Part shown: positions 31,913 through 38,323 of the stretch, in pieces | How the letters are laid out: each line of letters starts with the position of its first letter | Position numbering within the stretch: position 1 is the stretch's first letter | Assembly (NCBI RefSeq): GCF_004118265.1 | Contig: NZ_SDHW01000001.1 | Coordinates: 1,178,001-1,242,000, forward strand | From: Lacibacter luteus | Lineage (GTDB): Bacteria > Bacteroidota > Bacteroidia > Chitinophagales > Chitinophagaceae | Reading direction: 5' to 3' | DNA: 64,000 nt | Notes under the pieces: generated by a model | Seen by the model: the letters and a program-made list of their open reading frames with translations, nothing else | Told to the model about the DNA's origin: nothing | The model's database searches: none | Made by a program: the position numbers and the translations under genes

Positions 31913-32731
31913 CTACTCAGTATGATCGTGATGAAAACTATGGCCGCAGTTCGGGCATTTGACTGTTTTCTTTTGCCTCACTTTTTGCATTTCTTCTAAA
32001 AAACCGGCTGTAATAATACCTGCAGGCAATGCAAAAATAGCTACACCGCAAAGCATAATAATTGCCGTCATCACTTTTCCTAAAGTGGTTATGGGCACCA
32101 TATCGCCATAGCCTACCGATGTAAGTGTAACAAAGGCCCACCACAATGTGGCAGGTATACTGGTAAACACTTTTGGTTGTGCCTGGTGCTCGGTAAAGTA
32201 CATAATGCTCGATGCAATGATTACCAGAAAAAGTATCAGCACAACACTCAGCTTTAATTCACTTGCACGTTTCACAAATACATTCTTTACCATGCGTGCC
32301 GATTTCATGTAAGCAGTAAGCCGGAACAAACGCAGAAAACGCAGGAGTCGTAAAATACGCAGTACACGCAGATCGAGCCCGATAAGCGAATGAATATAGA
32401 AGGGTAATATTGCCAGGAGATCAATTATTCCTTCAACAGAAAAAACATAGCGAATCCTTCCATAAAGCGAATGTTCAAACCTTGCCTCGTGTATACAACT
32501 CCACAAGCGCAATAAATATTCAATCGTAAAAATGATAACGGAGATAAGATCGAAATAATGAAAGAAGGTAAGATACTTATCGTGTAAGGGCTGTACAGTT
32601 TCAAGTATCACCACAACTACGTTAGCAATAATTAAAAAAATGATAAACCCGTTAATGATCTTATCCCATTTTGTTTCGCCTAATTCGGGATGCAGTAAGA
32701 TGTGTATTTTTTTCCTGACTTTATGGTACAT
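31913..32731 (-). CDS. Voltage-gated potassium channel
   Basis: This 272-residue ion transporter has six predicted membrane helices. S4 is seen as LDLRVLRILRLLRFLRLFRL, with Arg at every third residue, and the pore has the potassium filter TSVGYGD before MVPITTLGK. The N-terminal part (KIINGFIIFLIIANVVVVI) is S1. The C-terminus ends CPNCGHSFHHDH, a small Cys/His tail that could bind a metal. I start at ATG 32731 (MYHKVRKKIHILLHPE); the open frame continues upstream through the neighbour's terminator. Function: voltage-dependent K+ flux. Confidence 0.92.
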   Translation of the reverse strand: MYHKVRKKIHILLHPELGETKWDKIINGFIIFLIIANVVVVILETVQPLHDKYLTFFHYFDLISVIIFTIEYLLRLWSCIHEARFEHSLYGRIRYVFSVEGIIDLLAILPFYIHSLIGLDLRVLRILRLLRFLRLFRLTAYMKSARMVKNVFVKRASELKLSVVLILFLVIIASSIMYFTEHQAQPKVFTSIPATLWWAFVTLTSVGYGDMVPITTLGKVMTAIIMLCGVAIFALPAGIITAGFLEEMQKVRQKKTVKCPNCGHSFHHDHTE

Positions 32732-32808
32732 GCAGTGGTTTTTGGCTGTTTTAAAGTTAATGAATAAAACAGGTTTTGCAAGAGCGAACAATGCGGCCTG
32801 CCTGCAAA

Positions 32809-32838
32809 TAAAAAAAGGATGAACCTGTTGGTTCATCC
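32809..32838 (-). terminator. Terminator after the acyltransferase gene
   Basis: On the minus strand GGATGAACC (32838-32830) pairs with GGTTCATCC (32825-32817), followed by a run of Ts (32816-32811). It separates the acyltransferase from the channel gene. Confidence 0.85.
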
Positions 32839-34508: not shown

Positions 34509-35168
34509 ATGAAATTAAAGGCAGCAATTTTTGATATGGATGGTTTACTAATTGACAGTGAACCTTTATGGCAGGAAGCAGGCAGTGAAACTTTACATGA
34601 ATTCGGCATTAATTTAACAACAGAACAATACCACAGCTCTACTGGTTTACGTACCGAAGAATGGATACAGCATTGGTTTCATTATTTCAATATTCCGACG
34701 CAACATGCAGTACAGGCAGTTGAAACCATTATTCAAAAAGCTGTTTCAAAAATTGATGCGAACGGCATTCCTTTTTCCGGATCTGACAGCATCATTCCTT
34801 TTATGCGTTCGTTCGGTTTAAAGATTGGTCTTGCAACTTCTTCTCCACTTTCGCTTGTTGAAGTTGTATTGAGAAAACTGAAACTTGAAAATAGTTTTGA
34901 TGCCATTACATCGGCCGAAAAACTTCCGTTTGGCAAACCGCACCCACAGGTTTACCTCAACTGCGCCAACGAGTTGAATGCTGCCGGTATGGAATGCATT
35001 GCATTTGAAGATTCGTTTAATGGCATGATCGCTGCCAAAGCTGCAAGAATGAAATGTGTAATTATTCCTGCTGTTGCAGATTACAATCATCCAAAATGGA
35101 ATGCTGCCGATTTAAAGCTGCAATCGCTTACTGCTTTTGATGAAGAGCAATTGAAACTGTTTTTATAA
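34509..35168 (+). CDS. hxpB: HAD-family sugar phosphatase, HxpB (YniC)-like
   Basis: This 219-residue HAD phosphatase is close to E. coli HxpB: FDMDGLLIDSEPLW (nucleophile Asp and acid Asp), GLATSSPLSLVEVVLRKL, TSAEKLPFGKPHPQVYLNCA (motif III Lys) and AFEDSFNGMIAAKAARMK (motif IV). HxpB acts on hexitol phosphates and 2-deoxyglucose 6-phosphate. It ends 6 bases inside the convergent ClC gene. The bases TAAAGTTTG end four bases before the ATG, like the leaderless pattern seen for other genes here. Confidence 0.93.
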   Translation: MKLKAAIFDMDGLLIDSEPLWQEAGSETLHEFGINLTTEQYHSSTGLRTEEWIQHWFHYFNIPTQHAVQAVETIIQKAVSKIDANGIPFSGSDSIIPFMRSFGLKIGLATSSPLSLVEVVLRKLKLENSFDAITSAEKLPFGKPHPQVYLNCANELNAAGMECIAFEDSFNGMIAAKAARMKCVIIPAVADYNHPKWNAADLKLQSLTAFDEEQLKLFL

Positions 35169-36947
35169 TTGCTCAGAAAGATGATGTGCGTTGAGCGTTT
35201 CACGCAAAAGCCCGAGTAATATCCGTTTATCTGCAAAGCCAATAAACGCACCATCTGCATTAATAACAGGAATATGCCATAGCTCCGATATATCGAAGAG
35301 ACGCATAATTTTTTGAATATCGTCTTTTACCGAAATACTGTACTGTGGTTTTACACTTACATCTGCCACACTTGTTTTATCGAACAGTTCTTCACGCAGC
35401 AAAATCGATTTTACATCGTCGATATAAACAAGGCCTGTAAGCTTTTGCTCATCATTCAATACAGGAAAAACAGTTTGATCGGTAATAAGAAATGCATTAC
35501 TGAGTTTGCGAAAACTGTCGTCGTATTTTAAAGCAATGTATTTCCGGTCGATGATCGACTCCGGTTTAATATTATTCAGGAGCACAAGTTCCCTGTCATC
35601 AATTTTAAAACCTTTTTGCGCCAGTTTTTCTGTGTAAATGGAATAAGGCTCAAATGCCCTGCTAATGAAATAACTTACTGCTGCAACAATCATCAGCGGC
35701 ACAAATAAGGTGTAACCACCCGTAACTTCAGCAATTAAAAAGATAGCGGTCAGCGGTGCATGCACCACTCCACTTAAAATACCTGCCATACCTGCTGCAA
35801 CAAAATTTACAGTGAGTAATTCTTTCCATCCTGTTGCATTAAAAAAATAGGCAAAGCCAAAACCTGTTACAGCTCCTGTAAACAACGTAGGTGCAAACAC
35901 GCCACCATTACCGCCTGCATGCAGTGTTAATGATGATGCAATTACTTTAAAAAAAACAATGCCGGCGATGATCACTAAAAAAACATATGGGTTTGTGATC
36001 CATTCTTTGTAAAAAGTATTGTTGAGTAATTTGTCTGAATTGTTTTGAAACAAAGCAGCCATTGTTGAATAACCTTCGCCATACAAAACCGGGAAGCAGA
36101 AAATTAAAAGCCCCAGTAACAACCCACCTCCTATTGCTTTCGGCACTACAGTTTTAACTGCTGCAAATTTTTTCTCCGTCCAGAAATACATGCGCATAAA
36201 ATACACCGATATCAAACCGCATAAACCTCCAAGCAACAGGTAAAAAGGAATTGCATCAACACGCCATTCTTTTGTAAGCAGATAAAACAAATGCTCATCG
36301 TACATGAGCCTTGAAACAACTGCACCGCTTGCAGAAGCAATAAGAATAGGTATAAACGTTGGAATAGAAAATTCTGCAATCAACACTTCCATTGCAAACA
36401 ATACTCCCGCAACAGGAGTGTTAAATACGGCTGCAATACCTGCCGCTGCACCGCATGCCAGTAAAACAACTCGTTCTTTATGACTCAATAGAAATATACG
36501 TGCAATGTTTGCGCCCACAGCCGAGCCTGTTGCAACAATTGGCGCTTCCAACCCAACAGAACCTCCGAACCCAACTGTTATAGCACTGCCCACCATATGT
36601 GTGTACATATTATCGGGCGAAACATTTCCATGCCGTTTAGATACAGATTGAATGATACTGCTGATGCCACTGCCTGTTTTTCCTTTACGTATCTTCTGCA
36701 CATAAAACACAGTAAGCAGAATGCCGATAAGCGGAAGCAGGTAAAACAAAAACTCCCAGGCATTATCTTTAAATAATCCGCCAAGTGCGAGCTGCAGTGC
36801 GTGTACAGATTTTTTCAGCAACACTGCAACAAAGCCCATTGCCACACCTACAATGATGCTGGCAATGAGCAAAAAATTACGATCGCTGATGCGTGCAACT
36901 CTGTAACGGTTAATATTTCGAACAACAGTTCTTAGCGACATGAACAT
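35163..36947 (-). CDS. ClC-type chloride channel or H+/Cl- antiporter with CBS domains
   Basis: This 594-residue membrane protein has the ClC signature blocks: GSGISS (for GSGIP), GSVGLEAPIV with the gating Glu of the GxEGP block, and GGNGGVFAPTLF (GxFxP). Ten or more helices cover residues 20-430. Two CBS domains follow (about 445-590, FPVLNDEQKLTGLVYIDD; WHIPVINADGAFIGFADK), which may sense adenine nucleotides. Its ATG overlaps the stop of the glycosyltransferase-phosphatase gene by one base, so the pair is co-translated, suggesting a shared role in osmotic or ionic stress. A second ATG lies two codons in. Confidence 0.94.
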   Translation of the reverse strand: MFMSLRTVVRNINRYRVARISDRNFLLIASIIVGVAMGFVAVLLKKSVHALQLALGGLFKDNAWEFLFYLLPLIGILLTVFYVQKIRKGKTGSGISSIIQSVSKRHGNVSPDNMYTHMVGSAITVGFGGSVGLEAPIVATGSAVGANIARIFLLSHKERVVLLACGAAAGIAAVFNTPVAGVLFAMEVLIAEFSIPTFIPILIASASGAVVSRLMYDEHLFYLLTKEWRVDAIPFYLLLGGLCGLISVYFMRMYFWTEKKFAAVKTVVPKAIGGGLLLGLLIFCFPVLYGEGYSTMAALFQNNSDKLLNNTFYKEWITNPYVFLVIIAGIVFFKVIASSLTLHAGGNGGVFAPTLFTGAVTGFGFAYFFNATGWKELLTVNFVAAGMAGILSGVVHAPLTAIFLIAEVTGGYTLFVPLMIVAAVSYFISRAFEPYSIYTEKLAQKGFKIDDRELVLLNNIKPESIIDRKYIALKYDDSFRKLSNAFLITDQTVFPVLNDEQKLTGLVYIDDVKSILLREELFDKTSVADVSVKPQYSISVKDDIQKIMRLFDISELWHIPVINADGAFIGFADKRILLGLLRETLNAHHLSEQL

Positions 36948-38323
36948 CAGGCAAATTCCAGTATCTCTTCAAATCTTGGAGAGGTAATCTGCCGGTCGGC
37001 AAGGTAGTTTAATAATTCGTTGGATGAGCAAAAAGAAACACCAACACCAACATGCTTGATCATGCAGAGATCGTTTTCTCCATCGCCGATTGCAATTGCA
37101 TTGTTGATACTGATATTGTAATGTTGTAAAATGTGTTGCACGGCATTTGTTTTACAAATACTGTGCTTACAAATTGATTCGGTATGATTAAAAAAGAAAG
37201 ATGGCAACTTTACTTCGCCTGTTGCTATACTTTTTGAAAACTCAAGTTCGTTAGCGAGTGAAAAATCGGCGCCAATTTTTGTTTTGATATGATTTGTTAC
37301 CACATCATAACTATCGCTGATGATACCTACTACATAGCCTCTGTTTTTTAATTCTTTTACTACTTCTTTTACATCATGTACTAATGGTATGCTGTCAGCA
37401 ACGGCCAGCACCTGCGAAAGATCAAGCCCCTTCAACAACTTTGCAATGTTTTTTGTAATGCTTGCCGAATCTGCGCCACTTGTGCGGATATTGATGAGTT
37501 CTTTTTGAAAACCATACAGCCTTGCACAAGTATCGATAAACCGTCCACGCAAAATGGTATTGTCCATATCAAAAATGGCGATCTTATCCAACCCCATTAA
37601 ACTTTCACGAATAGCAAAATCCATCTGGTCTCTTATTTCGGAGTAGGACTGTAATTCTTCAAGATTAATTTTTGCTTTGTTTTCTTTCATCGCTTTTTGA
37701 ATAATTGCTCTCGATACTTCTTTACTCATTTTACCCAACGCCTGCCAGGGTTTGCTCTTATTATCGAGATAGCCAATGTTCACCTCTGTAATACGGGCCT
37801 TTTGCAAATACATGTCGATAAGGATACCGATGTCCACACCATAATCATCATAAAAATCAATTTGCTCAAAGAATTGTTTTCGCCCAGCTATCATACCACT
37901 GAGTGGTTGTTCAAATTCCGAAAGGCCGGGAAATAAAATATTGAGCAATGGTTTTGCAACAAGCTCTGTTACACGACCTGCATTGCGTGCAAATGTTGCT
38001 TTTACAAAATCGTGTGTGTTGTTAATGATTGGGTTTGTAAGATCACAAATTGTGTTCGGAGGATACGGATTAATATCGCCATCGAGAAAAATCAGAATAT
38101 CGTTTGTTGCACAAAGCATGCCTTCTTTCATAGAAGCGCCTTTGCCTAATTTTGTACTGGTAATTACTTTAGCCCCTGCAGCAGATGCAATTGATACCGT
38201 ATCGTCAAACGACTTATCGTCTACCACAATTACTTCCGATACATGTTTGTTTGCAAATGCGAACTTAACTACACTCTCAATTGTTTCTGCTTCATTCAAA
38301 ACTGGAATAATTACTGTTACCAT
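36947..38323 (-). CDS. GpgS-like glycosyltransferase fused to HAD-IB phosphatase
   Basis: This 458-residue protein joins two enzymes. Residues 1-225 are a GT-A glycosyltransferase (VTVIIPVLNEAETI, VVDDKSFDDT, acceptor/metal motif LDGDI near residue 80). The blocks EFEQPLSGMIAGRK, YGVDIGILIDMY and KPWQALGKMSKEV strongly recall GT81 glucosyl-3-phosphoglycerate synthases. Residues about 245-458 are a SerB-like HAD phosphatase (FDMDNT nucleophile, ISDSYD, GDGENDLCMI). Synthase plus phosphatase in one chain would make glucosylglycerate, a compatible solute, from an NDP-sugar and 3-phosphoglycerate. The substrate is inference. It overlaps the ClC gene by one base. Confidence 0.8.
   Translation of the reverse strand: MVTVIIPVLNEAETIESVVKFAFANKHVSEVIVVDDKSFDDTVSIASAAGAKVITSTKLGKGASMKEGMLCATNDILIFLDGDINPYPPNTICDLTNPIINNTHDFVKATFARNAGRVTELVAKPLLNILFPGLSEFEQPLSGMIAGRKQFFEQIDFYDDYGVDIGILIDMYLQKARITEVNIGYLDNKSKPWQALGKMSKEVSRAIIQKAMKENKAKINLEELQSYSEIRDQMDFAIRESLMGLDKIAIFDMDNTILRGRFIDTCARLYGFQKELINIRTSGADSASITKNIAKLLKGLDLSQVLAVADSIPLVHDVKEVVKELKNRGYVVGIISDSYDVVTNHIKTKIGADFSLANELEFSKSIATGEVKLPSFFFNHTESICKHSICKTNAVQHILQHYNISINNAIAIGDGENDLCMIKHVGVGVSFCSSNELLNYLADRQITSPRFEEILEFA

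Follow-up and report, generated by a model that had tools for sequence, protein, structure and literature searches.

A GT81-like glycosyltransferase fused to a HAD-IB phosphatase in Lacibacter luteus, a probable two-step enzyme for glucosylglycerate

The 64,000-nucleotide stretch of Lacibacter luteus DNA analysed here (the window), from a genome of 5.07 Mb that is 99.95% complete, carries a gene in which a GT81-like glycosyltransferase is fused to a HAD-IB phosphatase. We think it probable that the product is a bifunctional enzyme making glucosylglycerate in two steps, the ClC gene beside it being a local partner only. In the first step 3-phosphoglycerate would receive a hexose through the GT81-like domain, glucose with a nucleotide sugar as donor being the likeliest, and become glucosyl-3-phosphoglycerate. 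The HAD-IB domain, a relative of SerB in which phosphoserine recognition has been lost, would then remove the phosphate from this intermediate, which may pass between the domains, to yield the compatible solute glucosylglycerate, with a possible role under stress. This would be a two-step route in one gene, as MgsD is for mannosylglycerate. Weighing against the proposal are a GpgS score below the cut-off, the exchange of the metal-binding histidine for asparagine, the loss of Arg261 from all but one of the fusions and a HAD site that is altered in 11 of 45. The features of the locus are:

36947..38323, minus strand: whole gene for the putative bifunctional GT81-like/HAD-IB fusion, 458 amino acids (ORF, Pfam, NCBIfam, genome survey)
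37676..38323, minus strand: GpgS-like GT-A domain, residues 1-216 (NCBIfam, PDB match, tree, fold, residues)
37592..37675, minus strand: linker, residues 217-244, with low mean pLDDT in the model
36947..37591, minus strand: SerB-type HAD-IB phosphatase domain, residues 245-458, with the catalytic set complete and the phosphoserine-binding Glu and Arg absent
35163..36947, minus strand: ClC with CBS region, 594 amino acids (Pfam), beside the fusion in only 5 of 45 loci
34509..35168, plus strand: convergent HxpB-type hexitol phosphatase gene (254 bits against a cut-off of 191), in the flank and outside the enzyme

The fusion ORF starts with ATG and contains all of the sequence blocks quoted in the initial annotation, QPLSG, YGVDIGILIDMY, KPWQALGKMSKEV, DMDNT and GDGEND. 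As claimed there, a GT-A glycosyltransferase and a complete HAD phosphatase lie in one frame, the ORF agreeing with Pfam matches to Glycos_transf_2 (residues 3-119, 1.2e-19) and HAD (residues 249-422, 4.6e-13). The one-base overlap with the ClC gene is also there, since the junction reads TGATG and the stop of the fusion and the start of the ClC frame have one base in common. That the frame is no product of chance follows from its retention at full length among the Chitinophagales, where 35 of 298 genomes have it; of the named relatives found, that of Lacibacter cauensis is the closest, at 91% identity. Of these 298 genomes, 38 gave a match at 1e-20, the 35 with full-length fusions holding 36 genes, and the remaining matches were adjacent GT and HAD frames in G223, a HAD alone in G140 and a fragment in G202. 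Since an assembly frameshift might account for the split in G223 (L118), that case is only suggestive. Across a sample of 395 genomes from the phylum, 134 matched at 1e-25, eight of them with a full-length fusion; the others were 21 unfused GpgS-like proteins, one short GT2-like protein and 104 matches of SerB type only.

The kinship of the N-terminal domain with GpgS, proposed from its sequence blocks, is upheld by profile, tree and fold alike. Among the NCBIfam models GpgS matched best (7e-52, 176.4 bits), though the curated cut-off of 262 bits was not reached, and it was also the best match in a search of PDB sequences with residues 1-225 (3.6e-28). An AlphaFold model of the fusion (33 sequences, pLDDT 86.8, pTM 0.49, the orientation of the domains being left uninterpreted at this pTM) retrieved GpgS structures first in a fold search (7pdo, 1.8e-21, 35% identity), with Rubrobacter MpgS from rank 41. 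A tree of 68 rows covered the GT domains of 44 fusions and one split GT, together with 16 unfused GpgS from Bacteroidota, the M. hassiacum GpgS and six GT2 enzymes of the own genome. In it the fusion domains, the split GT, the unfused GpgS and the M. hassiacum GpgS were separated from the six GT2 enzymes with support of 100/99, a test that is coarse because the six GT2 branches are very long. A generic GT2 identity for the domain is thus rejected by profile, tree and fold; it groups with GpgS and retains the acceptor residues.

Weaker matches of the domain were to AglJ (1.3e-23), Rubrobacter MpgS (4.4e-22) and an archaeal dolichol-phosphate mannose synthase (4e-8). In the excerpts of PMC7185993 used here, GT81 is grouped with GT2 enzymes that use phosphate acceptors. 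It might therefore be asked whether the GT acts on another phosphorylated acceptor, polyprenyl phosphate for example, with the HAD acting elsewhere in that pathway. The AglJ and mannose synthase matches would fit, as would the changes at the metal His and Arg261 described below; GpgS is, however, a far better match (7e-52, 5.4e-27), and we regard such an acceptor as quite unlikely.

The residues of the active site were compared over 45 fusions, with roles taken from the M. tuberculosis GpgS as described in excerpts of PMC2581804; for this count L179 was added by hand, L009 was left out and L014 was dropped as a repeat of L091. Equivalents of E54, S81, K114, D134, G184, R185, V186, L209 and M269 are found in 45 of 45, those of D136, S210, G211 and Y229 in 44 and that of T187 in 43. 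The donor-site network of Lys, DxD and acid is therefore present (K114 and D134 in 45/45, D136 in 44/45, the E232 position as Asp in 45/45). So too are the contacts to the 3-phosphoglycerate acceptor, where G184, R185, V186 and T187 are kept in 45, 45, 45 and 43 fusions respectively and all four in the window protein. Within the latter, the sites lie at 81-83 (DGD), 116-119 (GRVT) and 139-143 (QPLSG), with Asn188 where the metal His would be expected. This histidine (H258) is Asn in 43 of the 45 fusions, the window protein included, Val in L112, which is without other GT residues too, and His in L179, which comes from a more distant family; it is present in all 16 unfused GpgS and in M. hassiacum GpgS. 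According to the excerpts of PMC7185993, GT-A families have repeatedly lost the metal His, with water or Asp taking its place. The diphosphate contact R261 is kept in one fusion of 45, being Lys in 28, Gln in 15 and His in one. The L112 fusion (L112:8028-9404) has altered residues in both domains and is perhaps decaying.

An enzyme with the same two steps and a donor other than glucose, making mannosylglycerate or another hexosylglycerate, would be compatible with several of these features. Rubrobacter MpgS matches both by sequence (4.4e-22) and by fold, the Asp at the Glu232 position of all 45 fusions is as in MgS (PMC2581804, excerpts), and the MgS-like form PLGG occurs in L179 and in the split GT of G223. 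On the other hand, GpgS structures rank above MpgS, and the Ser of PLSG, at the S210 position where serine is thought to favour glucose (PMC2581804, excerpts), is found in 44 of the 45 fusions. We consider a donor other than glucose unlikely.

The C-terminal domain is of the HAD-IB type with the phosphoserine phosphatases as its nearest family (SerB model, 124.7 bits; 31% identity to the M. jannaschii SerB-type enzyme), and its catalytic set is complete in the window protein, bearing out the complete phosphatase of the initial annotation. Two positions that we take to be the phosphoserine-binding residues of SerB, Glu20 and Arg56 in M. jannaschii numbering, have both changed. Among 44 fusions the first has become Arg in 28 and Ser in 10, with another residue in six; at the second, all 44 carry Ile, Val, Met, Thr, Ser or Ala. 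Phe49 falls in an alignment gap in all 44. The Glu and Arg are thus found in 0/44 fusions as against 11/12 non-fusion controls, a control set in which three SerB controls gave empty rows and G107 and G255 were not included. The exception among the controls is a HAD phosphatase fused to a TIR domain (L123:8163-9362). An Arg in this place would fit a substrate that has a carboxylate but no amino group. Given the absence of the phosphoserine-binding residues from all 44 fusions, the domain is most likely a glucosyl-3-phosphoglycerate phosphatase rather than a phosphoserine phosphatase.

It could nonetheless be supposed that the HAD domain is the phosphoserine phosphatase of the cell, fused to another user of 3-phosphoglycerate. 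SerB is its nearest family, SerB-SerA fusions occur in the same order of bacteria, and the own genome has no other SerB-like HAD above noise, since beyond the fusion the SerB model gave seven matches, all weak and partial (best 0.0014). Against this stand the missing Glu and Arg, the case of G168, where the fusion is accompanied by a HAD in which the phosphoserine residues are retained, and the rarity of SerB in the order. A SerB-type HAD was found at 1e-10 in 55 of the 298 Chitinophagales genomes, none over the cut-off and 38 of them in fusion-family genomes, and was not found at this threshold in 243, indicating that the order has another route to serine. On the binding residues and this rarity we reject the domain as a serine enzyme, a role that appears very improbable. 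Among the loci read, L124:6853-8718 encodes a fusion of the SerB-SerA type, 621 residues long, whose domains are HAD, 2-hydroxyacid dehydrogenase and ACT; L130 (427 residues) has a shorter form.

The five-residue catalytic set of the HAD domain is intact in 34 of 45 fusions, and at least one residue is altered in the other 11, which speaks against one uniform function. Seven of the 11 (L110, L111 and L113-L117) form one clade with support of 100/99 in which the GT residues are intact; the nucleophile has become Asn or Glu in six of these and the second Asp is missing in L115. An intact HAD of the family occurs elsewhere in two of the genomes, as a separate HAD in G251 (L119) and in a second fusion in G119 (L095). 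At 1e-20 none was found in G168, G255, G263, G267 or G277, so that either another phosphatase serves there or the function has changed. A wider reading would be that with the HAD-IB domain a new glucosyl-3-phosphoglycerate phosphatase class begins, recruited from SerB by replacement of the phosphoserine Glu (mostly by Arg) and Arg, and that the fusion is a main glucosylglycerate route of the Chitinophagales. In the clade with the damaged phosphatase the end product would then be phosphorylated, either because the reaction halts at glucosyl-3-phosphoglycerate or because the HAD fold has become a sensor. We put this forward tentatively, as a rather doubtful extension.

Unfused GpgS genes of distant Bacteroidota (families f44, f63 and f42) offer a comparison. 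From 21 genomes, 17 loci were fetched and 16 read, L181 being left out as it has no called GpgS frame. As in the fusion, GpgS is paired with a HAD in 16/16; these operons differ in having separate genes, another type of HAD, an M20-like hydrolase upstream and the metal His retained. In every case both partner genes are on the strand of GpgS, the hydrolase gene immediately upstream and the HAD gene at the first or second position downstream; this cluster is conserved in L162-L176 and L180. The GpgS of L163 scored 396.2 bits, above the cut-off of 262, and the HAD gave a weak REG-2-like match. With a different HAD gene at their side, these GpgS genes bring the same two steps together independently. 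A GH13 gene lies within three genes on the opposite strand at 11 of the 16 loci and a GT4 gene at four. For the GH13 gene, sucrose phosphorylase was the nearest model (206 bits, cut-off 334), and glucosylglycerate phosphorylases belong to GH13_18 in the excerpts of PMC11009771; these genes may encode glucosylglycerate phosphorylases. An ortholog was not found in the genome of the window, where there were only partial matches of 29-32%, and this counts against a glucosylglycerate route for the fusion.

The initial annotation also had the fusion co-expressed with the ClC channel (Voltage_CLC 5.9e-82, CBS 3.8e-06) in an osmotic-stress unit. While its one-protein route to glucosylglycerate draws support from the GpgS kinship, the acceptor contacts and the complete HAD, the channel as a general partner does not stand. 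Of 45 loci, five have the ClC gene next to the fusion (the window, L009, L010, L084 and L085), all close relatives (L009 was included in this count and the neighbours of L179 were outside the reading), and in L095 it is four genes upstream. The overlap in the window and the gap of five bases in L084 and L085 would suit a conserved unit. In the syntenic close relatives L011, L012 and L015, however, the fusion is followed directly by the HxpB gene without a ClC. The neighbourhood is therefore not conserved, a conserved osmotic-stress unit of fusion and ClC is highly improbable, and the ClC is a local partner in the close relatives of the window. Of the two findings that the initial annotation named as refuting its proposal, this one is borne out, while the other, an N-domain grouping with generic GT2 enzymes and lacking the acceptor residues, is not. 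A voltage-gated-type ion channel gene (Ion_trans 1.7e-36) lies at 31913-32836 on the minus strand, about 2.3 kb from the ClC gene, and five other syntenic loci have it at the corresponding position.

More widely, 25 of 44 loci have a downstream gene on the same strand that begins at most 200 bases away. The downstream gene falls into a single cluster in 10 of 45; the member tested, from L092, is a universal stress protein, and members occur at the G223 and G140 loci as well. Other neighbours are DUF389 (L104, L177), a Na+/H+ exchanger (second gene, L177), TauE (L089), a Na/Ca exchanger and CitMHS (L178), a glycine transporter (L090) and DnaK (L112); for a membrane protein in L087 there was no match in Pfam. 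TPR, DUF4421, xylose-isomerase-like, RimM and short-chain dehydrogenase genes lie outside this ion and stress theme, which is no more than suggestive, the counts carrying no background rate.

The fusion shares its fold and its donor and acceptor residues with mycobacterial GpgS (GT81), the window domain being 35% identical to the M. hassiacum enzyme, and differs by carrying a HAD and by having Asn at the metal His, Asp at Glu232 and Lys at Arg261. The cut-off and the metal His keep it from being classed as a GpgS equivalog. With SerB (HAD-IB) it has fold and catalytic set in common, and because the phosphoserine-binding residues are gone it is not filed there either. Nor is it filed as MgsD, which we take to be a GT55 synthase with an MpgP-type HAD: the HAD of the fusion is of SerB type, and the GT55 synthase model was absent among its 14 Pfam matches up to an E-value of 10. 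The likeness to MgsD, the bifunctional mannosylglycerate synthase of Dehalococcoides, is that a synthase and a phosphatase acting on 3-phosphoglycerate are in one protein (PMC8490865, excerpts). The Marinobacter glucosylglycerol-phosphate phosphatase/synthase is likewise a synthase-phosphatase fusion for a glucosyl solute, compared here by description and not by domains, and makes a different product, glucosylglycerol (PMC10873239, excerpts). Within the literature excerpts retrieved, we found no paper on such a fusion in Bacteroidota and no glucosylglycerate route for the group that bears it. If our proposal is true, this group of Bacteroidota has a one-gene way to glucosylglycerate, and phosphatases of the SerB type have taken on a new substrate. 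One enzyme for both steps would aid glucosylglycerate production, and the clade with the damaged phosphatase offers a direct test of the purpose of the fused domain.
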